Shown here: positions 9,840 through 35,196 of the stretch, in pieces | How positions within the stretch are numbered: position 1 is the first letter of the stretch | Layout of the letters: every line of letters begins with the position of its first letter | NCBI RefSeq assembly: GCF_003095655.1 | Contig: NZ_CP029151.1 | Coordinates: 3,533,001 to 3,597,000, forward strand | Length of the DNA stretch: 64,000 bases | Origin: Dokdonia sp. Dokd-P16 | GTDB taxonomy: Bacteria > Bacteroidota > Bacteroidia > Flavobacteriales > Flavobacteriaceae | Direction: 5' to 3' | Made by a program: the position numbers and the translations under genes | The notes under the pieces: model-generated | What the model was told of the DNA's origin: nothing | Database searches by the model: none | Seen by the model: the letters and a program-made list of their open reading frames with translations, nothing else

Positions 9840-11042
9840 TTATGCTACCTTCAATATTACTTCGTTATTATTAGTACTTCTTCCTGCAAAAACATCTAGG
9901 TACATCTGAGCGATACGGCTCATAGGTAATGCTGTTGCTGCTTTGTAATTAGCTTTTGCTATTTCTGTTCTATATGCTTCATTCATTACTAGGTTTTCTA
10001 TACCAGATGCAAGACTGTGCATACTTTCTGGATTAAAGAACTCACCTCTATACCCTTCTTCTTTTACTAAGATGCTTAAATCTCCCAGATCTGGCATTAC
10101 TACTGCTTTACCATAGCTTCCTGCTTGGTGCAACACTCCAGAACTTCCAGTAGTAGATGTGTATGGAAAAACTACCATCGCACTCTCTGAAAATATTACT
10201 GGTACATCTTCTTCTTCTACATAACCTGTAAAAGTAAGGTTAGGAACGTGCTTATATATCTCTTGTACTTCGGCTAGGTATCCCGGTGTGTTAGGGCTAT
10301 CTGTTCCCGCAATTACGATTTCAAGATCGCGTCCTGTGTTTTCTCTTACCTTTTGTACAGCTTCTATAAGTATTTCTACTTTTTTATAAGTTCCAAATTT
10401 TCCAAAAGTCATTATCTTAAGAGGACCCGGAGCAGCTTGGTAAGACGGTTCTAATGGAATTTCAAAAGTACCATGAGGGATGAGTACGCAATTTTTTGCG
10501 TTATATTTTTCTTCTAGGATAGTTACATACTTGCTTATGGTAAGTGCTACAGTATCTGCTTTAAGAACTACACGAGTAAGCATCTCTCCAATAAAGTTAT
10601 ACGCTTTAATTTTAAGTTTATTAGATGTAAATCCTGCGCTATCAAGATCTACAGTTTCCATAATATTATGAAGTAATACCGTTGTTTTTACTCCCATTAA
10701 CTTAGAAACCCAAGGAGAAAACAGGCCTAAAGCGGCCGCTACTTTTTTATCTCCAAACTTCATAAACTGTAGGTTATAAAGTACTGCATCTGGCTTTGTA
10801 GCTCTTACTGCCTTTGCAATAGATAGTACATTAGATAAGCTGTTAAATTTCCAGCACTGCTTTACTGTGATTGCACATCCATCTTCTTCAAAAGTGATAT
10901 CTGCTTGTTCTGGAGTTACATCTGTAAGAAGTACAAGTTCTGTTACTTCTTGGTTTTGACGAAAGTGCTTAACTAAATGATATGCATATTCGTTTAAAGT
11001 TACTTTGCTCGGTGGATAGGCCGTTACGATTGCTAATTTCAT
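9840..11042 (-). CDS. Glycosyltransferase family 4
   Basis: About 400 residues with a GT-B fold. The N-terminal MKLAIVTAYPPSKVTLNEYA is the usual acceptor-domain start, so I take the ATG at 11042. An in-frame upstream start at 11120 would only add a low-complexity Thr/Ser stretch. The C-terminal donor domain shows KIMTFGKFGTYKKVEILIEA, then FTGYVEEEDV and an E-x7-E-like region (FSESAMVVFPYTSTTGSSG). It lies 46 bp after the STAS-like gene, in one operon. Probably cytoplasmic and adding sugars to the growing EPS unit; specificity unknown. Confidence 0.85.
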   Translation of the reverse strand: MKLAIVTAYPPSKVTLNEYAYHLVKHFRQNQEVTELVLLTDVTPEQADITFEEDGCAITVKQCWKFNSLSNVLSIAKAVRATKPDAVLYNLQFMKFGDKKVAAALGLFSPWVSKLMGVKTTVLLHNIMETVDLDSAGFTSNKLKIKAYNFIGEMLTRVVLKADTVALTISKYVTILEEKYNAKNCVLIPHGTFEIPLEPSYQAAPGPLKIMTFGKFGTYKKVEILIEAVQKVRENTGRDLEIVIAGTDSPNTPGYLAEVQEIYKHVPNLTFTGYVEEEDVPVIFSESAMVVFPYTSTTGSSGVLHQAGSYGKAVVMPDLGDLSILVKEEGYRGEFFNPESMHSLASGIENLVMNEAYRTEIAKANYKAATALPMSRIAQMYLDVFAGRSTNNNEVILKVA

Positions 11043-11088
11043 GATATATAGATTTGATGTTGATGTTGATGTAGTAGTATTCTTTTTG

Positions 11089-11388
11089 TTATGCTGCTGC
11101 CTGGTAATAGTTGGCTTCATTATTAAGCTGTGCGTATAATTCTTTTACTGCTGGCTCTGGATAGCTAAAAAACTTAAGTGATTTTTCTTCAGAGATTTCA
11201 GCTCGTAAGTTTTCTAAAACTCTTACTAGCTTCTTAGTTCCCTTTTTCACCTCACATAGGTTGATGATTACATTATCTTGTATCGTAAGTAATGCTTTGA
11301 AGTAACCTTTTACTTCTTGAATGTGTGTGCTAGATACTTTTCCTTTGATACAAGTTACTCCGTAAATGTTGTTGATTTCTAAAGCCAT
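11089..11388 (-). CDS. STAS-like small protein
   Basis: 99 residues. The order of strands and helices (MALEINNIYGVTCIKGKV, then NVIINLCEVKKGTKKLVRVL) resembles STAS or SpoIIAA-like domains, which bind partner proteins rather than catalyse. The usual phospho-acceptor Ser in a DxSG motif is not obvious; the equivalent stretch reads INLCEVKKGT. It is the first gene of a two-gene unit with the GT4, so a role in regulating EPS assembly is plausible. The family assignment is by general pattern only. Confidence 0.5.
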   Translation of the reverse strand: MALEINNIYGVTCIKGKVSSTHIQEVKGYFKALLTIQDNVIINLCEVKKGTKKLVRVLENLRAEISEEKSLKFFSYPEPAVKELYAQLNNEANYYQAAA

Positions 11389-11455: not shown

Positions 11456-11485
11456 GGACGAAAAACGTTTACTCGACCATTAGTG

Positions 11486-11517
11486 TAGACGAATGGTATT
11501 TGACCTTCGATAAACGA
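11486..11517. promoter_or_regulatory. LytTR-type operator of the STAS-GT4 unit
   Basis: TAGACGAATGG (11486) and TCGATAAACGA (11507), exactly 21 bp apart. Read toward the gene they contain ACCATTCGT and ATCGTTTAT, each matching the LytTR half-site pattern at 8 of 9 positions. The -7-like element CATATTTG (minus strand, 11434-11427) ends 59 bp away. A third weak copy, TCGACCATTAG, lies at 11473. Confidence 0.6.
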
Positions 11518-11671
11518 TTTTTGAAAATGGGCGGATTATCACGTATTTGCACCAACAGCCTATATTACAGCACTTAAGAATGCTATCAAAAGTGTTCTTT
11601 TATCAATGTAGAATACATTAGAAGGACGACGCTGGACGGCTATTTTCAGTTTTATAAAGTATTGGTAAAAC

Positions 11672-12721: not shown

Positions 12722-13960
12722 TTACTTTACTTGCATTTTCCAGAAGTAAAGTAGTTGTGCGATAAGTAAACCACCCATCGCTGCAACTTGGGCTAACACA
12801 ACTTCAAACAAGGAATCGTGGAATAATATGATTAATACTATTTGTAACACTCCAAAAATGGCCGCAATTACAATAGGCTTATAATGATCAAGGGATAAAT
12901 AGTAGTAGGCAAAAATATTAGATAGAGCAAAAAAAGAAGTAGCAAGAGCGTACCAGCCAAGTAAGGGAGCAATTGCCATATATTGATCTCCAAAGAGGAC
13001 CTGTACAGCAAATGATGGGAATAAAAACGTGAATATTACAATCGCACTTGCAAGGGCTGTGATGTATCCTACATACTTCATAAGTACTGGAACAGAGTTT
13101 TTACCCTCTTTACGCATGGTTACTACGGTAGGTAGTAATAACATCACAAACATCCAGGTCACAAAATATACAACACGGCCTATAAGAGCTAGTGAGGCAT
13201 ATAATCCTGCATCATAAGATGGAAAAAAGTGCTTTACTAATAATATGTCACTGTTATTACAAATGATTTGGGTAAGCTCGTAACATGCTGTAAGTACAAA
13301 AAACTGAGTTACTGCCTTACTTTCTTTTGAGGTAAGCGCTGTCTCTATCGCTTTTTTTGAAGTGAGCTTCTTAAAAGGAAACACTCCAGCGATAAAAGAA
13401 ATTGCTATTGCTGTAGATACTGCTACAGAGGATTCTATATTAAAAAACAGTAAGAAAGCAAAAGTAAGAGCGAGTCTACATACCATCTCTAGCTGATACG
13501 TGACAGAGAGTTCAATAAAAGATTTGCGTCCTTGCAGATTGCCACGATTTACACTCATAACAAAATAAAGTGGGACTGCTATTCCAAAAATGGTAAACAT
13601 TATAGGTGATGCCGTTTGAAAAAGTGACTGTAATGATGTTGCAAAAACTACAATCAACGCTCCGAGTATAATTCCAAAAGTCGTCGCCTGTTTATAAGCT
13701 CTTTTTACAAATGCTTCTTGTTTTGAAGCGTCAAACTCTGTAGTAAACTTTGCAACTGCGAGTTGGAAAGTCATCGCTACAAAAGATAATACTAGAAGTA
13801 ATGTTATCAATATAGCAGCATCTGCAAAAGCTCCAGGTCCTAGTACTCTACCTAAGCCTAAGTTATAGAGGTAATTTCCTCCATTTACTACAAAGGCACT
13901 GAGCATAAATATTTGCTCTGGTGAAAGTGCTTTTTTGATTTTTTGTTGGATTGCGATCAT
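12722..13960 (-). CDS. Polysaccharide flippase (MATE/MOP superfamily, Wzx-like)
   Basis: 412 residues with about twelve hydrophobic segments and short loops, typical of oligosaccharide flippases. The N-terminus (LSPEQIFMLSAFVVNGGNYLYNLGLGRVLGPGAFADAAIL) has the conserved LGRxLGPxxFG-like motif. NNSDILLVKHFFPSYDAGLYAS is the family's mid-protein signature. It would move lipid-linked sugar units across the inner membrane. It follows a 44-codon ORF by 2 bp, and the LytTR-type boxes at 14161 precede both. Confidence 0.85.
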   Translation of the reverse strand: MIAIQQKIKKALSPEQIFMLSAFVVNGGNYLYNLGLGRVLGPGAFADAAILITLLLVLSFVAMTFQLAVAKFTTEFDASKQEAFVKRAYKQATTFGIILGALIVVFATSLQSLFQTASPIMFTIFGIAVPLYFVMSVNRGNLQGRKSFIELSVTYQLEMVCRLALTFAFLLFFNIESSVAVSTAIAISFIAGVFPFKKLTSKKAIETALTSKESKAVTQFFVLTACYELTQIICNNSDILLVKHFFPSYDAGLYASLALIGRVVYFVTWMFVMLLLPTVVTMRKEGKNSVPVLMKYVGYITALASAIVIFTFLFPSFAVQVLFGDQYMAIAPLLGWYALATSFFALSNIFAYYYLSLDHYKPIVIAAIFGVLQIVLIILFHDSLFEVVLAQVAAMGGLLIAQLLYFWKMQVK

Positions 13961-14097: not shown

Positions 14098-14160
14098 AAT
14101 AGTTTGTTGTTTGATTCTGGTACAAAGATGCAAGCAATTAAGAGGCTTTCGGTTGAAATT

Positions 14161-14192
14161 TCGATGAGCACATTTTTACTATAGACGAGTGG
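14161..14192. promoter_or_regulatory. LytTR-type operator of the flippase unit
   Basis: TCGATGAGCAC (14161) and TAGACGAGTGG (14182), 21 bp apart. The second lies 59 bp from the end of the -7-like element at 14123-14130. Confidence 0.6.
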
Positions 14193-14229
14193 TAGGATTT
14201 CTTCTTTAAAGTAGCTTTTGTGGTTGAAT

Positions 14230-15485: not shown

Positions 15486-15842
15486 CGGCAACAGTAAGAA
15501 TTTATCAAGCCTTAGAATGAATGGAAGGCACATTTGGGGAGATGTCGACAACAAGTACTTCAAGAATGAAAGGAAGAAACAACTTAATAGATATTGTCAT
15601 CATAACTACCCAAGACTCATCACTACCTTATTTATACCGTCCAATCTAAAAAACATCATAAAAGCCTAAAAATTAGATGGTTCTTGACTTAATATTGAAT
15701 ATTTTTATTACCTATAAACTCAAAACTACCCTTTACCAGATCTTAACCTCCACCAGTCGACGATAAGTGTCGATGAGTTGCAATTATCTTCAGATTGAAA
15801 TCTTGATATATGACCATAACTTGCAACTGTAAAACAAATGTA
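15486..15842. other. Gap between the repeats and the TPR outer-membrane gene
   Basis: No gene seen. Contains the degenerate repeat end at 15532 and a weak LytTR-type site at 15749-15780. Confidence 0.5.
15749..15780. promoter_or_regulatory. Possible LytTR-type operator of the TPR outer-membrane gene
   Basis: TCGATGAGTTG (15770) with a weak partner TCCACCAGTCG 21 bp upstream. On the other strand TCGTCGACTGG (15763 to 15753) matches 8 of 11 positions of TAGACGAATGG. Orientation is unclear and no good -7 element is visible at the expected distance, so this is the weakest site of the set. Confidence 0.35.
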
Positions 15843-17864
15843 ATGAGAATAGCAACATTAATTATCGTCTTCCTTTTAAGTGCAACAGCATACGCTCAAG
15901 ATATGTCTGCAGGTTTCACTTTATTAGAAACTGGAAAATATGAGGAGGCAAAAGCTTTTTTTGGAGAAGTACTTAATGACTACCCAGATAATAAGACTGC
16001 AAGACTTTGTTACGGTCGTGCTTTAGGACTAAGCGGCGATAGCGCAGAAGCTAGATCATTATTTACAACGCTAAAAGCAGATTACCCAACAGATTTTGAA
16101 GTGGGTTTAAACTATGCAGAATCTCTTTTATGGGATAGCGATTTTGGCGCAGCAAAGGACTTTTATGAAACCCTCGTTGCCAAAGACAGCACGAGCTTCT
16201 CTGCCCTACTCGGCTATGCAAACACGCTTTCTAACCTTAAAGAATATGACGCGGCAATCGCTTATGTAAACAAGGCACTTACCGTACAACCTGGCAATGC
16301 CAATGCTGCAGTGTCAAAAAAGTTTATGCGTTTAGGTAAGGCAAACCAACTCACAACTGCCTTTCAATATGATGCTGCAATACAGTTGCTTAAAAATGCT
16401 CTTGAGGATATGCCTAACGATGAGCAAATCATAAGCGCACTTGCAAATACGTATATCGCAAAGAAGGATTATGAGAATGCAAACACGATGTACAGCAAGC
16501 TGTCAGACACCTTAACTTCTCAGGTAGGAAAGTCATTAGTTGCTCACTTACAGAAGGACGACAAGCTTGCTTTATCACTAGCTCAGGAGAGTATCGCTTT
16601 CGCGAAAGCGGACACTACAAAAATCATTACCGCAAACGAGCGCTACATCCAGGCACTCATATGGAACGGAAAATACGCCACGGCAAGAACTGCCATTGCC
16701 GATCTAAAAACGACATTCCCTACAAACCAGCGCGTTGCAGCACTCAAAGCTACGCTAGGGATGTACACTGGGACTTTCAAGAAAAGTATTGAGGTATATA
16801 ACGATATTCTTGAGAAGGATAGCGCGTCTTTTGATGGAAATCTAGGGATTGCAAATGCGTACCGTGCGCAGGGGAATCTGGATGAGGCTTACGCTTTCGC
16901 GAAAAATACCTTAACCTTCTACCCTAATCAGAAAGATGCTACTGGGTTAATGAAAACTATAGAAAGTAGCCTTGCTCCCGTGATCGAAACACGAGCTGCC
17001 TATACTTCTGATAATGGCGATAACCAAGCTTATTCTGCTGGAATGACAGCTACCCTACCATTTACAAGTAGATTTAAAACGGTGTTCTCATATAACTATA
17101 GAACTACTGAAAATATGACTACAAATACAATGGCATATAATACAGATGCATCTATAGGTGCTCATTATAGAGTGATTAATAATACGTGGTTAGAAGGTAC
17201 CCTAGGGTTTGTAAAAGCAAATGCAAGTGAAAATGAATACACCGATGTAAATGGATCTGTTTTTGTAAAATCGAGACCATTGCCACTGCAATATTTAGAG
17301 ATAGGATACAGCAGAACGTTACAAGATTTTAACGCAGCGCTACTAGACGAGAAGATATTTATGAATAACTACTCCCTTAACTACAATATGGGAACAAACA
17401 TTAATTTAGGTTGGTATTCTGGTCTTATGCATACGCAGCAAACGGATGGCAACTCTCGTAACTTACTATTCACTTCTTTATACTACAACTTTACAAAAAA
17501 CCCAACGCTTAAAGGTGGTATCAATTACCAGTATGTAGGTTTTAAAGATCAAGTACCTACGCTTTACTTTAGCCCATCAAAATACCAAGCAGTTGAGTTG
17601 TTTTTAGATCTTACTGGCCAGGCAGGGAAGTGGAGCTATGCAGCAAACGCTGCTGGAGGTTTACAAGTAGTAGAAGATGATGAGGCTACTACCCTATTTC
17701 GCTTAGAAGCAAGACTTCAATATGCAATATCTAACCGTTTTCAAGTAGGTGCTTATGGTAAGTACAGTAACATCGCCTCTGCAACCGCAGCAGGATTTGA
17801 GTTTATGGAAGTAGGCTTAAAACTGAGATGGCAAGTGCTTAAAGGTGGCGTTGTGAAGATGTAA
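15843..17864 (+). CDS. TPR plus beta-barrel outer-membrane protein (YaiO/PgaA-like), EPS export
   Basis: 673 residues from MRIATLIIVFLLSATAYAQ, a clear signal peptide; an in-frame start at 15810 would spoil it. Residues ~20-370 form about ten TPR-like repeats (for example GKYEEAKAFFGEVLNDYPDN and ALLGYANTLSNLKEYDAAI). Residues ~380-673 are a beta-barrel ending in LRWQVLKGGVVKM, with alternating strands as in YaiO-type porins. TPR followed by barrel is the plan of synthase-dependent EPS exporters (PgaA, BcsC). It would thread the polymer through the outer membrane. Two copies of the genome-wide palindrome are read as AFAKA and AFAKN within the TPR helices. Confidence 0.75.
   Translation: MRIATLIIVFLLSATAYAQDMSAGFTLLETGKYEEAKAFFGEVLNDYPDNKTARLCYGRALGLSGDSAEARSLFTTLKADYPTDFEVGLNYAESLLWDSDFGAAKDFYETLVAKDSTSFSALLGYANTLSNLKEYDAAIAYVNKALTVQPGNANAAVSKKFMRLGKANQLTTAFQYDAAIQLLKNALEDMPNDEQIISALANTYIAKKDYENANTMYSKLSDTLTSQVGKSLVAHLQKDDKLALSLAQESIAFAKADTTKIITANERYIQALIWNGKYATARTAIADLKTTFPTNQRVAALKATLGMYTGTFKKSIEVYNDILEKDSASFDGNLGIANAYRAQGNLDEAYAFAKNTLTFYPNQKDATGLMKTIESSLAPVIETRAAYTSDNGDNQAYSAGMTATLPFTSRFKTVFSYNYRTTENMTTNTMAYNTDASIGAHYRVINNTWLEGTLGFVKANASENEYTDVNGSVFVKSRPLPLQYLEIGYSRTLQDFNAALLDEKIFMNNYSLNYNMGTNINLGWYSGLMHTQQTDGNSRNLLFTSLYYNFTKNPTLKGGINYQYVGFKDQVPTLYFSPSKYQAVELFLDLTGQAGKWSYAANAAGGLQVVEDDEATTLFRLEARLQYAISNRFQVGAYGKYSNIASATAAGFEFMEVGLKLRWQVLKGGVVKM
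16595..16610. repeat. Palindrome CGCTTTCGCGAAAGCG inside the TPR gene
   Basis: In frame as SIAFAKAD in a TPR helix. Confidence 0.95.
16892..16904. repeat. Partial palindrome CGCTTTCGCGAAA inside the TPR gene
   Basis: In frame as YAFAKN; the right arm has decayed to AAATACC. Confidence 0.8.
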
Positions 17865-23133: not shown

Positions 23134-25734
23134 TTATCTTTTTATGACAAACTTGCCACTGTGTTGTTGTGAGGCACTATCTATTATTTTATAAGTGTAG
23201 ATACCTGTTTGTAAATTTGGAGCATTATAAGCTGCTGTTAAGCCTCCGTTATTCGTTGTTATTTCTTGTGCATCTACTATGCGCCCTAGCATATCTACTA
23301 CTGTGATTTGTACTGTTGCACTTGCTTGTGGTAAACGTATTGTAGTCTGCGATATAAATGGGTTAGGGTAATTTATTAATGCATCTGCTACCACTATATT
23401 TTCGTCTGTTGAAAGTACTTCTGAGTTTGCAAATTGTATATCATTAAGCTCCATTTCTTTTGTAACCATCGTTCCATCTTGAGATACCATGGTAAATACT
23501 ACTGTTACTAGATCATTAAGTAATAGCGGTACTCCCGATGTACTTGTAAAATTCTCAAATGAGATGTCAAAATCTTGATTGCTTTCTGTAAGTACTATCG
23601 TTGCTTTATACTGGTCTTCCCAGATTTCTATGCTTTCCTTTACAAAGGTAATTTCTAAGTTTCCTGTTCCCTTTGCTGTCATCTGTAGTGCATTAAATAT
23701 ACTTACGTCTACTGCTTGAAATCGTGCTGTAAGTGCTCTATATGCCGCAACATAACTATTTGTAGTTGCTGTGAGCGACAGGTTACGTTCTATAGCATAA
23801 GTATCATCTGCATATGTTTGTTCGTTTTCTGAAATTTCATAGATTACTACATCTGTCCCTTCTTGAGATGCATCTACTCCCCATGGTCCGTCAGATAAGA
23901 ATAAATCATCTGGAGTATTAATCCCGTCGCCTATTCTAAAGCCTATGTCAAATAAGTATCCAGTATCTATGGTTACTTGTGTGATGTAATTTTCGCCAAG
24001 TGAGATGCTAGAGGTTGTTGTTACAATCTCGCTTGTTTCTGTTGCTCTTATTCCTGCGTCAAAGATTACACTTTCGGTTGCGTTTGTATTGATAATTTCT
24101 AGTTGTAAAGCTCCGTTGTTATAGTTTCCTTTTTTTACAAAAACCGTAGGTGGTGCTGAGGTACTATATGCTGTTACTGGCTTTTGTACTTCTAGAAGAT
24201 TCAAAACTTGTTGTCCTAGCTTGTGTAAATCATCAATCGAGTTTGCCCATATTTGGAAGTTGTAAAATGTCACATCATCTTCATAACTATCCAGATTCCA
24301 GTGGCTTTCTACAGCAAACTCAGTCTCGTTGTTTACCATTTTCGCCGAAAGGCTTAAAACAAATTCTACACTACCATCTATATTTTTAATAAGTGACTTA
24401 ATAAATTGTTGATCATTAATTGCTATCGTAGATACAGATATAAGCTCTGCTCCTAGTAAACGATCACAGATATATTTCGTGTGCTCATACACGCCATTTT
24501 CTGTCTTAAGTGCAAGAATAGATGCGGTTGAGAGTTCGCCTTTTATGTAATCTACAGCATAAACATCTGTTGCATTTGTGATACCTACTAGATCTGTAGG
24601 TGTAGACTCTACTACATAATCCTCATCAATCTCCTCTAGTGGGATAAGATCTGCAAGCGTAAATGCTTGCGCAGTTCTTACGGCGTAAGTGTCTTTCTTA
24701 TCTACTAGCGGTGCAAGGTCTTTATTAAACTCATAACTCTCCTTTGCACGATTAAAATTACGTTTTGCGATGGCGTTAGAGAGTCTATTATTACTTTCTA
24801 ATCCTCCTTTATTTCCTGTAGATGCTTCTGGGTCTATAGTTGCACACATCCCGTATCCTGAGCATGATGGATCTTCACAATCTATGAGCCCGTCACCGTC
24901 ATCATCAATGCCGTTATCACAAATTTCTTGTAACACCGGTGCTGTAGGGCAACGTGCGCCATCATTACTTGCACTAGATGGTCCAAAGGCAAAAAGATTT
25001 GAATCTATAACTCCTATCCCATCAAGGTCTTGAACACTTTGTATTACATAAATAGTCCCTGTTTGATTTGCAGATACGTAGAAACGTCCTGATGCATCAA
25101 AATAAACGGCTCCATAGGTGTAGTTAAGTCCTGATAAGATAGGTACAATACCTAAAGGTTGCACTTGTCCATTTTCTGGGTTAATTCTATATAATATGTT
25201 CGTTCCTTTCTCTACAGCATACAACTGATTATCTACTGCATTAAATGCCCAGTCGTGTATATTTAAACTTTGTGATAATGAAGCCGTAGAAGTAAGCTCT
25301 GTGTATGTTTCTGACGCTGGATCAAGGTCTACAGTGTAGTATGTACTCCCGCCAGATTTAAAATAATATTGTCCTGTAGCGCTTATGTCACCTACATATT
25401 TATTGCCAGAAGGTAATGCATCTATAGTGATAGTAGTAGTCTCAAAGTTCTTACCTATTTTGACAATGGATTTTGATGGGCTTGATAAATATCCCCAGAT
25501 GTACCCATCTGCTGGATTGTATGCCGCTGCGTTTATCTTTCCTGCTGTGATATCTTTTGCTGCTAAAAAAGAATTTCCAGAAGCAAGGTCAATAGCGTAC
25601 ACATCATTGTATTGAAATAAGTATGCACTATAATCACAATTAAAAGGGACATCTTGTGAGCTAGCTGTAAATGAATACAGCAGGCAACTTAGTGCGATTA
25701 ATTGTCTTGTAAGAGAGTAGAAATTTGCTTTCAT
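23134..25734 (-). CDS. Secreted protein with T9SS C-terminal sorting domain
   Basis: 866 residues. Signal peptide (LIALSCLLYSFTASSQ), then a propeller-like region (~30-270) with repeated YxxDLxxG turns (DUF6923-like). A calcium-type motif CDNGIDDDGDGLIDCEDPSC follows near 270-290, then a long beta-rich middle. The end is a type A sorting domain (NYPNPFISQTTIRL, then TGIYTYKIID and GKFVIKR). Probably exported by the type IX system and anchored to, or released from, the surface. LytTR-type boxes upstream suggest co-regulation with EPS, so an adhesin or matrix protein is plausible. Confidence 0.82.
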   Translation of the reverse strand: MKANFYSLTRQLIALSCLLYSFTASSQDVPFNCDYSAYLFQYNDVYAIDLASGNSFLAAKDITAGKINAAAYNPADGYIWGYLSSPSKSIVKIGKNFETTTITIDALPSGNKYVGDISATGQYYFKSGGSTYYTVDLDPASETYTELTSTASLSQSLNIHDWAFNAVDNQLYAVEKGTNILYRINPENGQVQPLGIVPILSGLNYTYGAVYFDASGRFYVSANQTGTIYVIQSVQDLDGIGVIDSNLFAFGPSSASNDGARCPTAPVLQEICDNGIDDDGDGLIDCEDPSCSGYGMCATIDPEASTGNKGGLESNNRLSNAIAKRNFNRAKESYEFNKDLAPLVDKKDTYAVRTAQAFTLADLIPLEEIDEDYVVESTPTDLVGITNATDVYAVDYIKGELSTASILALKTENGVYEHTKYICDRLLGAELISVSTIAINDQQFIKSLIKNIDGSVEFVLSLSAKMVNNETEFAVESHWNLDSYEDDVTFYNFQIWANSIDDLHKLGQQVLNLLEVQKPVTAYSTSAPPTVFVKKGNYNNGALQLEIINTNATESVIFDAGIRATETSEIVTTTSSISLGENYITQVTIDTGYLFDIGFRIGDGINTPDDLFLSDGPWGVDASQEGTDVVIYEISENEQTYADDTYAIERNLSLTATTNSYVAAYRALTARFQAVDVSIFNALQMTAKGTGNLEITFVKESIEIWEDQYKATIVLTESNQDFDISFENFTSTSGVPLLLNDLVTVVFTMVSQDGTMVTKEMELNDIQFANSEVLSTDENIVVADALINYPNPFISQTTIRLPQASATVQITVVDMLGRIVDAQEITTNNGGLTAAYNAPNLQTGIYTYKIIDSASQQHSGKFVIKR

Positions 25735-25799: not shown

Positions 25800-25852
25800 T
25801 CGACCGTACTGGTCTATGTATCGTTGAGTGGTAATTTACTGTAGACGAATGG
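25800..25852. promoter_or_regulatory. LytTR-type operator of the T9SS protein gene, triple box
   Basis: TCGACCGTACT (25800), TCGTTGAGTGG (25821) and TAGACGAATGG (25842): three boxes on a 21-bp period. A perfect -7 element TAATTTTG (minus strand, 25770-25763) ends 58 bp from the middle box. Confidence 0.6.
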
Positions 25853-25863
25853 AATTTATTGTT

Positions 25864-26586
25864 TTACAGCAAGTTAAGTCGCTTCATAAGTTCAGGTCTG
25901 TTAGAACGACTTATTGGGATTACATCTCTAGCTATCAAAACGCTATTATCTTCAATATCAACTATTTTCTTAATGTTAATAATGTAAGAGCGATGTATTT
26001 TTAAGAAAAGACTATCTGGTAGTTTTTCCTCTATTTTCTTAAGTGTAGAATGTACAGTATAATTTTTTCCTTCAGTTTTAATAAGTACGTAGTCACCTTT
26101 TGCTTCTACGAGAAATATTTTTTCAAACTCAATCTTTATAAGACGTCTATCTATGTTTACATACATCTCCTTTTCTGAGGTCTCTTCTTGCTTTGATTCT
26201 TGAGGAGCCACAATATTTTGTACTACTGGAGATTTAAAGCTTTCAACTTTTTGCATCGCCTTAAGAAATCTAGGTAGGGTTATAGGTTTTACTAGATAAT
26301 CTACAATACAATCATACTCAAAAGCTTCTATCGCAAAGTCACGATCTGAGGTAGTAAGTACAATTTTAGGCGGATTTTTAAGCGAGTCTATAAAGTCAAA
26401 ACCTGTAAAATCTGGCATGTGTATATCTAAGAATATGAGGTCAATCTCGTTCTTATTTAAAAATTTGATTGCCTGCATCGCGTTAGGAAACTCATCAATT
26501 ACATTGAGTTCGTCTACCTGGCTACATAAGTGCGATACGATAGTACGTGCCGCAGTTTCATCATCTACAATAATACAGTTCAACAT
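25864..26586 (-). CDS. LytTR-family response regulator
   Basis: 241 residues from MLNCIIVDDETAAR; an upstream in-frame start at 26613 precedes the conserved beginning and is unlikely. The receiver domain has acidic Asp8/Asp9, phosphorylation site Asp54 (LIFLDIHMP) and YLVKP. The C-terminal LytTR domain (YVNIDRRLIKIEFEKIFLVEAKGDYVLIKTE, abbreviated here) ends with FLKIHRSYIINIKKI. This is the last gene of the H-NOX/FIST operon, following the Hpt gene by 35 bp. It is therefore the likely output that binds the 21-bp-period repeats in this window. Confidence 0.93.
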   Translation of the reverse strand: MLNCIIVDDETAARTIVSHLCSQVDELNVIDEFPNAMQAIKFLNKNEIDLIFLDIHMPDFTGFDFIDSLKNPPKIVLTTSDRDFAIEAFEYDCIVDYLVKPITLPRFLKAMQKVESFKSPVVQNIVAPQESKQEETSEKEMYVNIDRRLIKIEFEKIFLVEAKGDYVLIKTEGKNYTVHSTLKKIEEKLPDSLFLKIHRSYIINIKKIVDIEDNSVLIARDVIPISRSNRPELMKRLNLL

Positions 26587-26621
26587 ATAGATATTTTGTG
26601 ATTTAATATGCAATTTACAGA

Positions 26622-26939
26622 TTATAAATCTTTTATAAAATGGATTACAGCGGTTAGAATGCTTTCAAATTCTTCTTTTAAGGTTGATTTTCCTTCTTTA
26701 AGCTCATCTTCATAAGCAATGGCGAGTTCGTACCCTTTTTCTAATCCTACGATACCTAGTTTGTGTTTAATCTTATGTACATTTTCGGCCGCTTTCGCGA
26801 AAGCGGAATCCTTCATATTACCTTCATACTCGGCAATTTCTTGAGGTAATTCTGCTTGTACAACGCCTATAAGTTTTTTTTCAAAACCTGCGTCTCCACC
26901 TGAAAGTTCTTTGATATAATTGAGATTGGGCTGTTCCAT
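26622..26939 (-). CDS. Histidine phosphotransfer (Hpt) domain protein
   Basis: 105 residues from MEQPNLNYIKELSGGD, whose ATG lies one base after the kinase stop. The four-helix Hpt fold is recognisable by ENVHKIKHKLGIVGL, with His55 as the likely phospho-acceptor, and by a C-terminal helix pair. It would relay phosphate between a kinase/receiver step and the LytTR regulator. The palindrome at 26790 encodes AFAKA (residues 46-50) directly before the active helix segment. Confidence 0.85.
   Translation of the reverse strand: MEQPNLNYIKELSGGDAGFEKKLIGVVQAELPQEIAEYEGNMKDSAFAKAAENVHKIKHKLGIVGLEKGYELAIAYEDELKEGKSTLKEEFESILTAVIHFIKDL
26790..26805. repeat. Palindrome CGCTTTCGCGAAAGCG inside the Hpt gene
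   Basis: Read on the minus strand as SAFAKAA, five residues before the acceptor His. Confidence 0.95.
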
Positions 26940-26940
26940 A

Positions 26941-27984
26941 TCATGTAGTTTGAGGTAACGTAAAATAAAATGTAGTTCCCACACCTTCTGTGCTATCTAA
27001 CCATATTTTACCATCATAGAAGTGTACGATTTTCTTAACAATAGATAATCCAATTCCCGTACTTTCAGAATCATTCTCTAGCTTTTGAAACACTTGAAAA
27101 ATCTTGTGGAAGTATGCTGGATTAATTCCTTTACCATTATCCTTGATTTCAAACTGGAAATTATCATCAAGGTTTCTTGCTATTACTTCTATAAGTCCTT
27201 TAGGCTTATCTATACTGCTTACAGCATTACCTATCAAATTTTGAAATAACTGCTGGATTTTAAAACGGTCTGCAAGAATAGTAGGTAGCTTATGTATTTT
27301 AATAGTAATATGCTCTGGTAGATGCATGAGATCTACGGTTTCTTTTACCAGAACATTAAGGTCTATCTGTCGTTCTGTGCGTACTTCCTTGTCAATAGAA
27401 GAGTAATTTAAAATACCTGTAATAAGGGCATCCATTTTTTCTAAATGGGTTACTATAAGACCAATTTGAGTTTTTCCCTCCTCGCCTATGGCGTCTCCAT
27501 AATCTTCTTTGAGCCAACTTACTAATGCTTCAATACTGCGCAATGGTGATTTGAGATCATGAGATACAATGTGTGCATAATCATTGAGCTCTTGGTTTTG
27601 CAATGCTAGTTCTTTTACTAGTAATTCTTGATCTCTATTTACTAGGATAAGTTGCTCTGCTTGCTGGCTTATATATTCGGCTAGGTTTGCGTCGCCTATA
27701 TCAATACCTTCATCATCATCTTCACCAAAGGGTTGTACTGCATTTATAACAGACTGCAAGCGTATCAATAATCCTTGCTGTCTTTGTGACTCTTCTCTAA
27801 GTTGTTTATTTGCTTCAAATAGCTCATCTGAGCTTAGTTTCATGGCTAGTTGTGTCAACTTAAACTGATTGTCAAAATTATCATATGATCCTCCCACGGC
27901 ATCAAAAAAGACCTGCATATCCTCACGATCTTTAAGATCGTCAGGAAGATATTTACGTATTTGTCTTTTTAAGAGTGGGTTCAT
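26941..27984 (-). CDS. Soluble histidine kinase paired with the FIST protein
   Basis: 347 residues, no membrane segment. The N-terminal ~120 residues (LKRQIRKYLP, then FFDAVGGSYDNFD and KLSSDELFEANKQLREE) form a coiled-coil module found in kinases and cyclases linked to FIST sensors. The HisKA domain has YAHIVSHDLKSPLRSI and the ATPase domain has NLIGNAVSSI, DNGKGI and STGIGLSIVKKIV. Its start directly abuts the FIST stop, and the Hpt start is one base after its own stop. It probably receives its signal from the FIST protein by contact. Confidence 0.9.
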   Translation of the reverse strand: MNPLLKRQIRKYLPDDLKDREDMQVFFDAVGGSYDNFDNQFKLTQLAMKLSSDELFEANKQLREESQRQQGLLIRLQSVINAVQPFGEDDDEGIDIGDANLAEYISQQAEQLILVNRDQELLVKELALQNQELNDYAHIVSHDLKSPLRSIEALVSWLKEDYGDAIGEEGKTQIGLIVTHLEKMDALITGILNYSSIDKEVRTERQIDLNVLVKETVDLMHLPEHITIKIHKLPTILADRFKIQQLFQNLIGNAVSSIDKPKGLIEVIARNLDDNFQFEIKDNGKGINPAYFHKIFQVFQKLENDSESTGIGLSIVKKIVHFYDGKIWLDSTEGVGTTFYFTLPQTT

Positions 27985-29115
27985 CTATTCGCTTATTAAA
28001 GTGATAGTCATCGTTTGATTATGCAATTTGCAACTACGTTCTCCGTAAAATGGTGCAATCTCTCCATAAGAGTACATACCACTTATCACTACATCATCCC
28101 CTATCACACTCATCACTTCCTCGACCTCTTCTTCAATGCGTTGATCTAGTACTAATTTACGTCCTATACAGCTTATAAGCAATGCTAATTGTGGCGGATT
28201 ATTCCTTCCCTCCATAGCCCTCAATGCTGCGGTTTCTGATGCCGAAGCGATACTATCCATATTTGTCATCATAAGTTGTACCTTAGATTGCTCTGGCACA
28301 TCTCCTGCTAGAATCATCGCGTTTTTATCTTCATCTATATTTAAAATCGTACGTACAAATGACTGGTCATTTTCTGCACTTTTTACATTGAGCGGATAAA
28401 TAAGCGCAGATCCTGGTAAATCTTGTGCTTTATCACCTAGGTAGGTTTTGTATAAATCTAATGCTGGTTTACCATCTATCTCGTATAAGATATTACCATC
28501 AGATTTTGTGATCAACCTTTCTGGTCCAAAAGGTGTCCACCCACCATAAATAGAAAATGACGCTTCAAAGGTTTCTCCATAAAAACCTATGACTACAATC
28601 TCGCCTTCCTTTGGTGCTTCATTATAAGAGGCAAGTGTTTTTTCAAAACGTGCATCATCTCCACAAAGTCCGCCAGTAATTAAAACATTAGGCAATGCTC
28701 CTTGCATTCCCTTGGTGAGGGCAGATCCATTTACAAAACTCCCCTCAGATAATACAAATACATGCTTAAGGCCTTCTACAGTTAACTTCTTTATTATTGT
28801 AGATCCCGCTTTTTCACTATCGTCTCCTACTTCATGAATATTAAATGTTTGAATCTCAAAGGAAGACTTTTCAAACTCTATTGCGGTTATTGTAATATGT
28901 TCATCATTTACTGCACCAGCTACAATCTCACCACTAGAAGATCCAAAAACTAAATGCCCCGAAGGAAATAAGTCTCTTACTTCCTCAAAAACACCTTCCT
29001 TTTCTAGAAGGAAACGATTTCCTAGAATAAGCACCAGCGGATTACTAAGTGTTATGGATTCACTTAAATAGTGCCATGAACCAGACGAGTCGCGTTGTAG
29101 TTGTACTGTTCTCAT
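27985..29115 (-). CDS. FIST domain sensor protein (NosP-like)
   Basis: 376 residues. The FIST_N part (NPLVLILGNRFLLEKEGVFEEV, then GSSSGEIVAGAVNDEHITI) and FIST_C part (YKTYLGDKAQDLPGSALIYPL, then ALLISCIGRKLVLDQRIEEE and GMYSYGEIAPF) are both present, full length. In Pseudomonas and Vibrio, FIST proteins named NosP bind heme and sense nitric oxide, working with an adjacent kinase. Here the kinase gene follows immediately. Small-molecule or amino-acid sensing is the alternative. Heme binding cannot be read from sequence alone. Confidence 0.82.
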   Translation of the reverse strand: MRTVQLQRDSSGSWHYLSESITLSNPLVLILGNRFLLEKEGVFEEVRDLFPSGHLVFGSSSGEIVAGAVNDEHITITAIEFEKSSFEIQTFNIHEVGDDSEKAGSTIIKKLTVEGLKHVFVLSEGSFVNGSALTKGMQGALPNVLITGGLCGDDARFEKTLASYNEAPKEGEIVVIGFYGETFEASFSIYGGWTPFGPERLITKSDGNILYEIDGKPALDLYKTYLGDKAQDLPGSALIYPLNVKSAENDQSFVRTILNIDEDKNAMILAGDVPEQSKVQLMMTNMDSIASASETAALRAMEGRNNPPQLALLISCIGRKLVLDQRIEEEVEEVMSVIGDDVVISGMYSYGEIAPFYGERSCKLHNQTMTITLISE

Positions 29116-29119
29116 TATA

Positions 29120-31096
29120 TTATTTTTGTAATGTAAAAAAGAAAGTAGTTCCCTCTCCTACGTTGCTCTCTAACCATATACTTCCTTTATAAAGGTCTAC
29201 TATTTTCTTAACAATAGAAAGTCCTATACCCGTCGAGTCTTTATGGTTATTGAGTGACTGAAAAATTTTAAATATTTTATCATGGTATTCCTTAGGAATC
29301 CCGATTCCATTATCCTTAACCGTAAAGGTATAATGTGTTTTGTTTTCTGTGTATCCTACTTCTATGTGACCTTCTTCTTTATCACAATAACGTATAGCAT
29401 TACTCATCAAATTCTGAAATAACTGTTGTAACTTGACTTTATCTCCATTTACCGTAGGTAAATCTGGATGAATATACAATGTTATATGTTCTGGACAGTG
29501 AAGTAAAGTTTCTATATCTGCTAGTACTTCTTGTAAATTTACTTTTTCTCGAGGGGCATTTTCAGATCCTACACTGGAGTATTCAAGAACATCAGATATA
29601 AGCTGTTCCATCTTTTCTAAAGTGGTGTCTATCATCGCAAGATGACTCATTGTTTCCTCTGTAAGCACACCTTCATTATCATCCTTAATCCAATTTACAA
29701 GTGCATTTATACTCCTAAGCGGACTTTTAAGATCATGAGAAACTACATGTGCATACTCCTGCAGCTCATCATTACTTTTTTCAAGCTTCTTTAAAAGATT
29801 TTCCTTTTGTATCTCTAAACTTTTGAGCTCTGTTATATCGAGGTGTATTCCTATAGAGCCTATGACTTTGCCATTTAAATTATAGTTTGGAGCACCACTT
29901 ATTAACCAGTGTTTAAATTCACCACTCTTAGTTATAGCCTGCACTTCGTATGAATTTGACGCTCCGCTCAACCTATCATTATTCTCTTGAGTAAGCCTTT
30001 CTTGAGATGCTGGTGTAAGTAGTATTTCCTTTGCATTTTTCCCAAGTATTTCCTCTTCCGTATATCCAGATAATAGTTCAAAACTATTATTAACCATCAA
30101 AATTTCATTATCAAGATTTACCTCAGTAAGACCCAAGTTCATATTTGCAATAATGTCACTATATTTTTGACGTTCTGCTTCTATGCTTTCGCGAAACTTT
30201 CTTCTCAAGGTAACATCTCTATACGTCCAAAGGTGACCTTTATAAATACCTTCTTCATAAATAGGAATAAAATCTCTCTCCAAGATACGACCATCAACTA
30301 ATTTAAGCTCATCAGATAGCGCTTGTTCTTTTTTTCGTGTAAGCGTATTAATTCTTGATACAAATTCTTCTGGATCCTTAAAAAGATGTTTGCTTTCTGT
30401 TGCTGCATTCTCACAGTTTACTCCGATGAGTTGTTCTGGAGTAGCAGTAATATTAAAAAAATCGCAAAAGCGATTATTTGTGATTACAATATTTCTGTGC
30501 TCATCTTCTAAAAGTATACCACTTTCTAGGTTTAAGATAAGCGCAGATAATCTATTTTCTGAATCTACGAGACGTTGCTCTGCAGCTTTTTCTTCAGTAA
30601 TATCTCTTACAATACCTTGCGCTGCTATAGGTTGTCCATCTGCATTAAATACAATACTTGCATTAATATGAACCAACTTAATAGCTCCTGAAGCAATAAT
30701 AATTTTTATTTGAAAATCTGTTATTGCTCCTTTAGAGGTTAGGATTTCAAAACCCTCGACAACTTTATCATTTTCGTCTGGGTGGACAATATCCCAAAGA
30801 TTGAAGTTATCTTCTAGGCTATACCCTAGAAGTTTTATGGCAGCATCATTCATCTTGATAACATTGCCAGATAACTCCATAACCACGTAAGCATCCACAA
30901 TGTTTTCAAACACTCCTTCAAGTTCAGAAGTGCGTTCTTTTACAATATCTTCCAGTTTTGAGTTTGAAACTCTCAACTCCTCAGATTTGTGATATAATTC
31001 TAATGACTTTTCCTCAAGAATACGCTCGGCTTCTTTTCTAGCGGCCTTTTCACGCGCTAGTGCTCTTTCATACATCTTGATTTTGGGGTCACTCAT
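29120..31096 (-). CDS. PAS-domain histidine kinase next to H-NOX
   Basis: 658 residues, cytoplasmic. A coiled-coil N-terminus (YERALAREKAARKEAERILEE) is followed by three PAS domains (about 58-170, 178-300 and 303-425; GYTEEEILGKNAKEI in the third). Then come HisKA with YAHVVSHDLKSPLRSI and an ATPase domain with NLMSNAIRY, DNGIGIP and STGIGLSIVKKIV. It overlaps the H-NOX gene by 8 bp, so it is the likely H-NOX partner kinase. Its HisKA and ATPase parts resemble those of the second kinase at 26941, suggesting duplication or cross-talk. A partial palindrome (30185) lies inside. Confidence 0.92.
   Translation of the reverse strand: MSDPKIKMYERALAREKAARKEAERILEEKSLELYHKSEELRVSNSKLEDIVKERTSELEGVFENIVDAYVVMELSGNVIKMNDAAIKLLGYSLEDNFNLWDIVHPDENDKVVEGFEILTSKGAITDFQIKIIIASGAIKLVHINASIVFNADGQPIAAQGIVRDITEEKAAEQRLVDSENRLSALILNLESGILLEDEHRNIVITNNRFCDFFNITATPEQLIGVNCENAATESKHLFKDPEEFVSRINTLTRKKEQALSDELKLVDGRILERDFIPIYEEGIYKGHLWTYRDVTLRRKFRESIEAERQKYSDIIANMNLGLTEVNLDNEILMVNNSFELLSGYTEEEILGKNAKEILLTPASQERLTQENNDRLSGASNSYEVQAITKSGEFKHWLISGAPNYNLNGKVIGSIGIHLDITELKSLEIQKENLLKKLEKSNDELQEYAHVVSHDLKSPLRSINALVNWIKDDNEGVLTEETMSHLAMIDTTLEKMEQLISDVLEYSSVGSENAPREKVNLQEVLADIETLLHCPEHITLYIHPDLPTVNGDKVKLQQLFQNLMSNAIRYCDKEEGHIEVGYTENKTHYTFTVKDNGIGIPKEYHDKIFKIFQSLNNHKDSTGIGLSIVKKIVDLYKGSIWLESNVGEGTTFFFTLQK
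30185..30196. repeat. Partial palindrome GCTTTCGCGAAA inside the PAS kinase gene
   Basis: Minus-strand frame reads KFRESIE; right arm decayed. Confidence 0.75.
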
Positions 31097-31631
31097 ATGT
31101 TGCTATGCTGAATTTTACTTCGGTTCCGTTTTCTTTTAATTTTTCAACTAAGATAGTAGCTTTTGTATTAAAAAACTCAAAAGTTTTATTCATTAGTCCT
31201 CGACCAAAGGCATGCATGGCTCTGCTTGACTTATAGATCATTACGAGACTTTCCGGAGTCTTCTCTTCTATGGTAAAAGTAGGCAACTCTGCATCTGGAT
31301 AAATCTTTCTAACCTCTACATGTATGTGGTTTTCTATAGATGAAAGCATCTCTATTGGATCTGTATATTGCTTTAAAAAAGATGGATAACTTTTTTCTAC
31401 TACCGTAAAAAAATGCTCTCCATAAACCAGTAATAAATCATCAATTACAAGTCCCGTTTCCTTACTTAAATTAGTAAGTAGGCTCACCATCTCTGTAAAG
31501 CTATAGGTTCCTACTGCTGTATAAACACCATTAGAAGGTAACTCAGATTCATTAAGAATGGTGTCAACCATTTCTAAACCAAATTTTGTTTCAACAAGAT
31601 CTAAAAACTCTGTAAATACAATTCCTTTCAT
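31089..31631 (-). CDS. H-NOX (HNOB) heme-based gas sensor
   Basis: 180 residues, the standard length of a stand-alone bacterial H-NOX. Visible: MKGIVFTEFLDLVETKFG at the start, proximal heme ligand His104 (NHIHVEVRKIYPDAELPTF), the following Pro117 (H-x12-P) and Tyr133-x-Ser135-x-Arg137 (YKSSR), which binds the heme propionates. All diagnostic heme-pocket residues are therefore kept. Stand-alone H-NOX proteins of facultative bacteria bind NO selectively and inhibit or tune a partner kinase, here the gene overlapping its 3' end. It is the second gene of the operon. Confidence 0.94.
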   Translation of the reverse strand: MKGIVFTEFLDLVETKFGLEMVDTILNESELPSNGVYTAVGTYSFTEMVSLLTNLSKETGLVIDDLLLVYGEHFFTVVEKSYPSFLKQYTDPIEMLSSIENHIHVEVRKIYPDAELPTFTIEEKTPESLVMIYKSSRAMHAFGRGLMNKTFEFFNTKATILVEKLKENGTEVKFSIATYE

Positions 31632-32080
31632 TATGCTTTGATTAATTCATTCATACTCCAGTACTCTAAAGCCGATTTTATTTTTTCAACGTAGTGATCG
31701 TATTTTAAAGGTTTAATAATATAACCTGCCACTCCTGTATCATAACAGGCTAGTATATCCTTGCGGTTGCTTGACGTCGTGAGCATTACTGTGGGTAAAA
31801 ATCGTAAAATTTCGTCTTTTTTCAAAATCTTCAAGAACTCTATTCCGTTGATTTTTGGCATATTGAGATCTAAAAATATTACATCTGGCAATACCGTGTG
31901 ATCTTTAAGTATCTCAAGTGCTTCCTCACCATTTTTTGCTTCTATGAGCTCATGGTTCATTTCTAGCTTTGCTATGGCTCTCTTGAGTTTCATTACCTCA
32001 ATGGCATCGTCCTCTATGAGCAGTATTCGTAATTTTTTTGTCCCCAAAGTATTGATCTTTATGTTTCCAAAGTTGGTCAA
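31631..32080 (-). CDS. Single-domain response regulator (Rcp1-like)
   Basis: 149 residues: a receiver only, with Asp24/Asp25, phospho-acceptor Asp71 (FLDLNMPKINGIEFL), TTSSN and IIKPLKYDHY. No output domain, so it works as a phosphate relay or sink or by protein contact. First gene of the seven-gene operon, ending one base into the H-NOX start. The start is TTG at 32080: a stop codon lies immediately upstream in frame and no ATG precedes the receiver, so the weak start seems genuine. Confidence 0.85.
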   Translation of the reverse strand: MTNFGNIKINTLGTKKLRILLIEDDAIEVMKLKRAIAKLEMNHELIEAKNGEEALEILKDHTVLPDVIFLDLNMPKINGIEFLKILKKDEILRFLPTVMLTTSSNRKDILACYDTGVAGYIIKPLKYDHYVEKIKSALEYWSMNELIKA

Positions 32081-32127
32081 TTAAAGTCAATATTCTTCAA
32101 TAATTAAGTCTAACGAGTCCTTTACTG

Positions 32128-32159
32128 TAGACGGACGACGTTTAAGTGTCGACGAGTGG
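32128..32159. promoter_or_regulatory. LytTR-type operator of the H-NOX/FIST operon
   Basis: TAGACGGACGA (32128) and TCGACGAGTGG (32149), 21 bp apart, 48 bp upstream of the first gene. The predicted -7 element is weak (GAATATTG, minus strand, ending 61 bp from the second box). This would make the relay autoregulated. Confidence 0.55.
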
Positions 32160-32231
32160 TAATTTACATGTATAATTTATTATTTATTAATGAACTACTA
32201 TCTCCGTCCATATATAGTGTTTTCTCAAAAG

Positions 32232-33653: not shown

Positions 33654-33672
33654 AAATACCTCAACATATACT

Positions 33673-33706
33673 AAAAAAGGGAAGCATTACTGCTTCCCTT
33701 TTTTTA
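33673..33706 (+). terminator. Terminator of hemN
   Basis: AAAAAAGGGAAGCA / TGCTTCCCTTTTTTT with loop TTAC, 20 bp after the stop; also usable from the other side. Confidence 0.9.
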
Positions 33707-33873
33707 TGCTCTTGACGATTAGTAGACCTCAGCAAGTTCATGATTATCTATGCGAACTAATACGATCTTTCTGGTAGGTAAAAAGCCATTGTAAGGATAT
33801 AAATAGGTCGAGACCTTTAAAGACTAAACTGTTTAATAAAGTACTTGTATACTCTCTTATGATTTGTAATCCT

Positions 33874-34020
33874 TTACTTTTCATCAGTTTTAGATTTTTT
33901 TGAGTCTCCCTTTATCATGTTGAGTACGATAAGTACAAGGGTGATACATACTAGCGCAAATACTCCTATGAGTAGTGCTCCCATTCCCCAGTCTACGAGA
34001 AGTATTAAAAAATGTTCCAT
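33874..34020 (-). CDS. Small single-span membrane protein (48 aa) ending the cbb3 region
   Basis: ATG at 34020-34018, TAA at 33876-33874. Product starts MEHFLILLVDWGMGALLIGV, continues with a hydrophobic span and ends in the charged tail KGDSKKSKTDEK. One transmembrane helix with a cytoplasmic tail is predicted. It follows the SafE-like gene by 22 bp on the same strand. No named family recognised; a small assembly or stability factor for the oxidase or copper import is an inference. Confidence 0.6.
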   Translation of the reverse strand: MEHFLILLVDWGMGALLIGVFALVCITLVLIVLNMIKGDSKKSKTDEK

Positions 34021-34042
34021 AATTATAAATGTTTGGTTGTTA

Positions 34043-34750: not shown

Positions 34751-35196
34751 TAGTAAACGATTGACTTTTTATACATGTATTCCTCTTCACCGTCTGTCCA
34801 CGCTATGATAATGTTCCATCGACCGTCTATCAGCTGATTGTCAGGTATGAGCAAATTAGATCCTGAAATAGCCATAGGCACTTCAAAATCAAGTTGCTGA
34901 TTAGACGGTCTGTATAGAAACACTGTTCCTTTATTTGTACTTTCTGAAATAGACGATGGGAAGGTGAGTAACCATCCCTCTGGCGTGCGTTTTCCGCTAA
35001 TCTTTCCTACGAGATTACGCGCATTAGTCTCTGCATCTATTTCGGTTTGATATGCCATTTCCTTAGCATAATACTCTTCTGTCACAAGATCATGGCTATA
35101 ATTATCGTCTGTACTCATGGTGATTACCATGTACAGGATAAAGCCCATAAAACAAGCCATCGCCACTACAATTCCCTTTCCCCAGTTCCATTTCAT
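34750..35196 (-). CDS. ccoH: CcoH/FixH, cbb3 oxidase assembly protein
   Basis: 148 residues. One N-terminal membrane anchor (WGKGIVVAMACFMGFILYMVI), then a FixH-type periplasmic domain with HDLVTEEYYAKEMAYQTEID and a final beta domain containing DGRWNIIIAWTDGEEEY. Needed for maturation and stability of the oxidase, acting with the CcoI copper pump and CcoG. Start ATGA overlaps the stop of the small Cys-rich ORF. Confidence 0.9.
   Translation of the reverse strand: MKWNWGKGIVVAMACFMGFILYMVITMSTDDNYSHDLVTEEYYAKEMAYQTEIDAETNARNLVGKISGKRTPEGWLLTFPSSISESTNKGTVFLYRPSNQQLDFEVPMAISGSNLLIPDNQLIDGRWNIIIAWTDGEEEYMYKKSIVY

Follow-up and report, generated by a model that had tools for sequence, protein, structure and literature searches.

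Nitric oxide (NO) signalling in bacteria is, in those parts of the literature that we cite, a matter of Proteobacteria and runs mainly via cyclic di-GMP (c-di-GMP) or quorum sensing. Here we describe a seven-gene operon with two candidate sensors, an H-NOX and a FIST protein, from the flavobacterium Dokdonia sp. Dokd-P16. It lies in a stretch of 64,000 nucleotides (contig NZ_CP029151.1, positions 3,533,001 to 3,597,000), and "the window" below means this whole stretch. Several described systems resemble it. The Vibrio fischeri pathway from HnoX-HahK through SypF/LuxU to SypG has an H-NOX-controlled kinase, a histidine phosphotransfer (Hpt) step, a DNA-binding regulator and polysaccharide (syp) output (PMC12369376). 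The H-NOX/HqsK systems of V. harveyi and V. parahaemolyticus and the NosP/VpsS system of V. cholerae also act through an Hpt protein and a transcription factor, LuxU and LuxO (PMC6769237). A FIST gene, a kinase and a response regulator share an operon in Legionella (NosP-NahK-NarR) and Burkholderia (nosRPK) (PMC11237717, PMC12570481), and in Shewanella (HnoX-HnoK-HnoB/HnoD) a partner kinase is under H-NOX control (PMC8846402). Further, FIST genes near hnox, in the neighbourhoods of H-NOX group 1, were already listed in a 2022 review (PMC8738867).

The Dokdonia operon differs from each of these. In V. fischeri HahK has its own receiver, the described operon consists of hnoX and hahK only, and the output is SypG, not a LytTR regulator (PMC12369376). 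In the Vibrio LuxU systems the H-NOX and NosP inputs are described in different species, the kinases are hybrids and the output is quorum sensing (PMC6769237). The Legionella and Burkholderia NosP systems end in a c-di-GMP-type output domain, a degenerate HD-GYP in Burkholderia (PMC11237717, PMC12570481), whereas the FIST protein of the window falls short of the NosP model and the last component is a LytTR regulator. The Shewanella output is a c-di-GMP phosphodiesterase (PMC8846402), while the genome of the window has no match to GGDEF or EAL. In the section of the 2022 review on FIST neighbourhoods there is no flavobacterial operon, LytTR, Hpt or operator (PMC8738867). The original prediction, made from the window sequence alone, held that no described system joins these two sensors to a LytTR output. 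As worded this was overstated, as the Vibrio H-NOX and NosP kinases already feed Hpt proteins and DNA-binding regulators, with polysaccharide as the output in V. fischeri. A flavobacterial or LytTR version was not found among the matches listed in the literature searched, from which the subscription literature was mostly outside the scope, and LytTR is not mentioned in the accessible parts of a flavobacterial transcriptome paper (PMC9723704). As far as could be seen, that literature describes no LytTR relay with an operator to which both sensors are joined, though the system is a variant of a type already known.

We read the operon as a two-input phosphorelay, with a probability of roughly 0.6. 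H-NOX, as the NO input, would control a first histidine kinase (HK1), and FIST would control a second (HK2) via the N-terminal half of that kinase. Both kinases would phosphorylate a stand-alone receiver, from which the phosphate would flow to Hpt and on to the LytTR regulator. The regulator would then bind a direct repeat (CCATTCGTCKACACT, copies 21 bp apart) located before its own operon, a secreted-protein gene and polysaccharide genes, and NO would in this way change the cell coat without a c-di-GMP step. The operon is found on the minus strand at 25864-32080, with neighbouring frames a few bases apart, and its genes are, in order of transcription:

31631..32080, minus strand: stand-alone receiver (REC); Pfam Response_reg, 80 bits; probable start 32047
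31089..31631, minus strand: H-NOX sensor; Pfam HNOB, 141 bits against a curated cut-off of 25.5
29120..31096, minus strand: HK1, three-PAS histidine kinase, presumed H-NOX partner; PAS repeats, HisKA and HATPase
27985..29115, minus strand: FIST protein of type A, presumed HK2 sensor; Pfam FIST_N 142 and FIST_C 123 bits
26941..27984, minus strand: HK2, second histidine kinase; HisKA and HATPase, PAS domain not found
26622..26939, open frame from 26984, minus strand: Hpt phosphotransfer protein; Pfam Hpt, 27.5 bits against a cut-off of 24.6
25864..26580, minus strand: REC-LytTR response regulator; Pfam Response_reg 65 and LytTR 76 bits

In a Pfam profile search each of the seven genes has its domain above the curated cut-off, in agreement with the gene content and tight spacing that had been predicted. 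For the receiver 32047 is a more probable start than 32080, as the median length of its orthologues is 137 amino acids; by the same argument (median 105 amino acids) Hpt probably starts at 26939, and the LytTR regulator probably starts with the ATG at 26580. The genome is a single contig of 3.62 Mb, 99.95% complete, in which H-NOX and FIST are each matched once. Among named sequences the H-NOX protein is closest to one from an uncultured Dokdonia (99%).

The arrangement is conserved. H-NOX is matched in 146 of 397 Flavobacteriaceae genomes, FIST in 116 and both in 93; in a sample of the phylum, 27 of 395 genomes have H-NOX. From the family 140 H-NOX loci were fetched, and the scored set, again of 140, consists of the window and 139 of these, locus L166 being left out as its H-NOX frame was not called. 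Nine family H-NOX places are outside the locus set (G197, G228, G167, G066, G140:C28, G057, G112, G327 and G076:C2). FIST and HK2 are located between HK1 and Hpt in 77 of the scored loci, including L064, which a gap of more than 300 bases had split and which was set by hand as seven-gene. Another 57 loci have no FIST-HK2 but do have Hpt or LytTR (L112, cut at a contig end, and L150, with an odd order, are counted here), and six are of another type, incomplete or cut (L061, L069, L073, L099, L107, L154). In 55 loci REC, H-NOX, HK1, Hpt and LytTR are found together without HK2, which we call the five-gene form. A second set, of 80 named loci, contains 51 seven-gene, 24 five-gene and 5 other loci. 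The exact seven-gene order is uninterrupted in 67/140 family loci and 47/80 named loci, which rules out chance clustering of the genes and bears out the predicted conservation across the family. The two sets have 20 H-NOX sequences in common, so totals over both (211, 214, 104 and 127) contain near-duplicates. In a plasmid search, no operon with both FIST and H-NOX was found in the six regions inspected.

The residues expected to carry phosphate are also conserved. The phosphorylated histidine is present in 136/137 aligned rows of HK1 and 77/77 of HK2, and in the receiver Asp24, Asp71, Ser103 and Lys123 are found in all 135 rows and Thr102 in 134. His70 of Hpt (132/132) and Asp63 of the LytTR regulator (126/126, both in long-frame numbering) are invariant. 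Among the 27 other matches of the HK1 core in its own genome, HK2 is the closest at 51% identity, followed by one at 40%. The N-terminal pattern R[EQ]..[AS]R..AE..LE of HK1 is present in 133/139 orthologues, while a stricter pattern tried first was found in 6/139. Neither kinase has a match to a receiver domain in Pfam, so Hpt needs the stand-alone receiver. A locus of another type, L061 (genome G253, 5467-12198), has a sigma-54-type regulator, FIST and H-NOX beside one kinase, and in this kinase HNOBA, REC and a sub-threshold Hpt match (21.7 vs 24.6 bits) are parts of one chain. The H-NOX of L061 is only 20% identical, and the fused chain suggests the order that we propose for the split proteins: kinase, receiver, Hpt and DNA-binding regulator. 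The role of the receiver as the likely middle step had been passed over in the original prediction, as had the operator sites and the polysaccharide targets described below.

For H-NOX itself the predicted haem pocket is confirmed: His104, Pro117, Tyr133 and Ser135 are found in 140/140 aligned rows, and at position 137 of the YxSxR motif 136 rows have Arg and 4 have Lys. The best solved relatives are 6BDE (280 bits) and 6BDD (277 bits). In a molecular-dynamics paper 6BDD is used as the Kordia algicida H-NOX, and by simulation its distal pocket prefers NO (PMC7356049, in the parts available). Over 179 residues 6BDD and the H-NOX of locus L232, from Kordia algicida OT-1, have the same sequence, and this locus has all seven genes in the same order as the window; the structurally solved H-NOX therefore belongs to this operon type. 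The H-NOX of the window is predicted to bind haem and NO. Further, going by the offset from the His ligand and not by a structural alignment, Phe142 would take the place of Tyr140 in O2 sensors, and on this numbering we reject O2 sensing.

FIST and HK2 resemble a sensor cartridge that can be exchanged on a common relay of REC, Hpt and LytTR. A tree was made of the remaining five operon proteins (132 loci, of which 77 have FIST-HK2 and 55 lack it; L061, L073, L150 and loci without a clear state are left out), and on it the presence of the pair changes 17 times, at least 11 of these being forced by well-supported branches, compared with a mean of 42 after shuffling. The tree is unrooted, and the changes count gains and losses alike. 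In 69 seven-gene loci the FIST distances follow those of HK2 (r 0.70) more than those of the other five proteins (0.33-0.48). Nine loci of the two sets have a second FIST type (B), about 20% identical to type A, and these carry a different N-terminal half of HK2 (7 assigned by pattern, 2 by eye). Loci with type A carry the usual input half (112 by pattern, 5 by eye), and at one type A locus, L168, HK2 has no visible input half. In row samples, the identity between type A and type B HK2 proteins is 27% for the input halves and 51% for the cores; within type A the values are 49% and 54%, and within type B 51% and 57%. In a tree of kinase cores HK1 forms one group, and HK2 types A and B are not two clean groups. 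It is the shared slot, the mostly joint changes in presence, the tie between FIST type and input half, and the similar cores that make the pair resemble a cartridge, and they favour the predicted picture in which one Hpt and a DNA-binding output receive signals from two units of sensor and kinase. FIST is also found elsewhere in the family, as a second FIST group: in 18 of 30 short FIST loci (among L031-L055), all outside an H-NOX operon, the neighbouring gene matches a kinase only weakly (27-63 bits).

Regulators of the LytTR type bind direct-repeat operators with copies about 21 bp apart. A recurring motif was first noticed in the gap between the LytTR gene and the secreted-protein gene. In this form, CAYTCRTCKRY, it is present on the coding strand of 143/211 operon promoters (other strand 0, shuffles 0.1), and after the LytTR gene in 41/202 (other strand 3, shuffles 0.1). 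A 40-bp position weight matrix (PWM), built from 126 operon promoters with the window and its nearest relative left out, shows two copies of the motif 21 bp apart. It finds these sites in the window:

32121..32160, minus strand: LytTR-type direct-repeat site 5' of the operon; PWM 47.9
25814..25853, minus strand: direct-repeat site 5' of the secreted-protein gene; PWM 41.3
14154..14193, minus strand: direct-repeat site 5' of the flippase gene; PWM 23.5
11458..11518, minus strand: direct-repeat site 5' of a small gene and a glycosyltransferase gene; PWM 17.0, overlapping 10.0
15742..15781, minus strand: weak site 5' of the exporter-like gene, in opposite orientation; PWM 12.4

Of 30 simulated 64-kb windows, 3 contained a match at the threshold that was applied, and the best score among the 30 was 14.6; the scores of 12.4 and 10.0 are within the simulated range. 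In the relatives (window not counted) a site is present 5' of the operon in 195/214 loci, a count that is partly circular as the matrix was trained on operon promoters; this does not apply to the other genes. For these, the site is found 5' of the secreted-protein gene in 86/104 loci (window not counted) and 5' of the glycosyltransferase gene in 14 of the 30 loci that hold it. In total there are 462 matrix matches in 201 loci, 111 of them before genes outside the reference set, including a STAS-like family (37 loci), a 104-residue family (20), UDP-sugar dehydrogenase (10) and a CAP protein (10). In the genome of the window all three exact sites and one of two one-mismatch sites are inside the window; if up to two mismatches are allowed, the genome has 12 sites, of which the window contains 6, compared with 11 for the reversed control. 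The exact 18-base pattern is found in 81/397 genomes, 73 of these with H-NOX, and the reversed control in 2/397. Out of 122 exact sites, 46 are within 1.5 kb of hnox, 54 are at 1.5-30 kb and 12 are on another contig of an H-NOX genome. Adjacency and conservation suggest that the sites are recognised by the LytTR regulator of the operon.

The genes behind the sites, all predicted targets at most, are:

23134..25734, minus strand: secreted protein with DUF6923, an acidic disulfide repeat and a sorting tail of the type IX secretion system (T9SS); probable target
12722..13960, minus strand: polysaccharide flippase-type protein; Pfam Polysacc_synt_3, 37.4 bits; probable target
11089..11388, minus strand: small protein, weakly like a STAS-like family; no direct family match
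9840..11120, probable start 11042, minus strand: group 1 glycosyltransferase; Pfam Glycos_transf_1; probable target
15810..17864, plus strand: TPR/beta-barrel protein, weakly PgaA/BcsC-like, possible polysaccharide export; Pfam TPR, BCSC_C 24.7 bits

A match to the middle part of the secreted protein is found in 91/397 genomes, 84 with H-NOX (kinship not corrected, as in all Fisher tests), also where it is not near hnox. Its predicted structure is of moderate confidence only, with a mean predicted local distance difference test (pLDDT) score of 70.8, and a fold search gives long, poor alignments with local propeller-like and CBM11-like matches that are suggestive only. The small protein has no NCBIfam match; its weak link to the STAS-like family is 35% identity over 31 residues with a protein of locus L122, itself below the STAS cut-off (21.3 vs 22.6 bits). 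The TPR/beta-barrel protein scores 57.4 bits on the NCBIfam PgaA model, whose cut-off is 366.65. Taken together, the T9SS-tailed protein, the flippase, the glycosyltransferase and the PgaA/BcsC-like protein point to the cell coat as the output, and the repeat before the operon, the secreted-protein gene and the polysaccharide genes suggests that NO alters the coat by direct transcription. We reject an output through c-di-GMP: GGDEF and EAL have no matches each in the whole genome (E 0.001), so what had been claimed for the window, no GGDEF or EAL domain and no c-di-GMP enzyme as output, extends to the genome.

Between the flippase and exporter-like genes, at 14382-15669, nearly repeated short frames flank a small open reading frame (14787-15146). 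By eye this looks like an inserted element; a tandem-repeat search of 14000-16000 found none.

A number of observations weigh against the two-input relay and its proposed targets. A site above the threshold precedes the flippase gene in only 8/43 loci and the exporter-like gene in 5/89, each time in the opposite orientation, and for two further genes of the kind found in the polysaccharide region of the window no such site is seen (0/16 and 0/3). The exact 18-base site is missing from half of the H-NOX genomes (73/146) and present in 8 genomes that lack H-NOX. There are nine LytTR matches in the genome, so another regulator could bind the sites. The distances of HK2 are less closely correlated with those of FIST (0.70) than with those of the remaining five proteins (0.75-0.83). 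Two Tenacibaculum loci (L239, L273) retain HK2 without FIST, and a Polaribacter locus (L250) has no Hpt frame, so the parts of the operon are not strictly inseparable; a genome of the same genus (G206) has no H-NOX match. In L239 and L273 the kinase motif after the phosphorylated histidine of HK2 differs as well.

The identity of the FIST protein also counts against the original prediction, which had taken it for a NosP-like NO sensor. Both FIST domains are present and HK2 follows immediately, an arrangement described for NosP. However, the protein scores 56.8 bits on the NCBIfam NosP equivalog model, where the cut-off is 450, and we reject it as NosP. An invariant His is absent from a 28-row alignment of types A and B; in an alignment of another locus set His365 is found in 73/77 rows. 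A search by sequence for a solved relative gave only chance-level matches. The predicted fold (27985-29115, mean pLDDT 92) has human FBXO22 and Toblerone-fold hydrolases as its best PDB matches, and this likeness gave no haem placement in the fold search. It is a tentative but serious possibility that the FIST arm senses haem or another ligand and not NO, so that an NO input and another, metabolic input meet in the operon. The failed NosP model, the gene hemN divergent to the operon and the two FIST types that share the slot at about 20% identity are in line with this, and in a review, as far as available, V. cholerae CdpA is said to possibly detect haem through FIST domains (PMC8846402). The position beside a kinase speaks for NO, as do the reports that NosP of V. 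cholerae, B. pseudomallei and L. pneumophila responds to NO (PMC6769237, PMC11237717, PMC12570481, each in part).

The kinases could also have separate partners, H-NOX/HK1 acting on the receiver alone with a CheY-like output and FIST/HK2 on Hpt and LytTR. In seven-gene loci Hpt directly follows HK2 and the receiver comes first, beside H-NOX, and for Hnox2 of Legionella a kinase is described together with a CheY-like regulator whose output is unknown (PMC11237717/PMC12570481, in part). We find this unlikely, given the five-gene form with Hpt and LytTR retained in the absence of HK2 (55/140 loci), the HK2 core being the closest match to that of HK1 in the genome, the lack of a receiver match in either kinase, and the fusion of kinase, REC and weak Hpt in L061. 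It is more doubtful still that we see no more than ordinary conserved gene order, with the nearness to polysaccharide and secreted-protein genes due to shared ancestry and not to regulation. Upstream genes of unrelated type are indeed conserved in 33-35 loci and the five-gene form is widespread, but the same direct repeat precedes the operon and the candidate targets, exact sites occur on other contigs of H-NOX genomes, and the secreted-protein gene accompanies H-NOX in 84/91 genomes, with the reservation on kinship given above.

Set against these alternatives, the two-input relay keeps most of what was predicted: one Hpt, a DNA-binding output, no c-di-GMP and conservation are supported by comparison, while the NosP identity is not supported and the claim of novelty was overstated. 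In a wider form, for which we see evenly balanced odds, Flavobacteriaceae would have a c-di-GMP-free NO relay made of a fixed REC-Hpt-LytTR bus and a plug-in FIST-HK2 cartridge. The cartridge could be lost, or its FIST exchanged together with the kinase input half while the bus-facing core is kept, and the relay would integrate NO with a second FIST signal and, by way of an operator shared across the family, directly switch the polysaccharide and T9SS genes of the cell surface. A conserved circuit of marine flavobacteria with a predicted operator and predicted coat targets is readily testable. Further, the natural joint exchange of FIST and kinase input half, with the core kept, is a ready-made experiment on how a kinase reads an accessory sensor, and the FIST arm bears on what FIST domains sense.

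Other genes of the window may be mentioned. Beside the NO operon, at 32292-43651, there is hemN with a cbb3 oxidase cluster: a fused CcoN/CcoO, CcoP, CcoG and an E1-E2 ATPase with a metal-binding domain. At 47397-52681 six open reading frames resemble universal stress proteins by eye; a receiver-Crp regulator and a PAS kinase come next. Finally, a protein with a BLUF blue-light sensor domain is encoded at 61762-62229.

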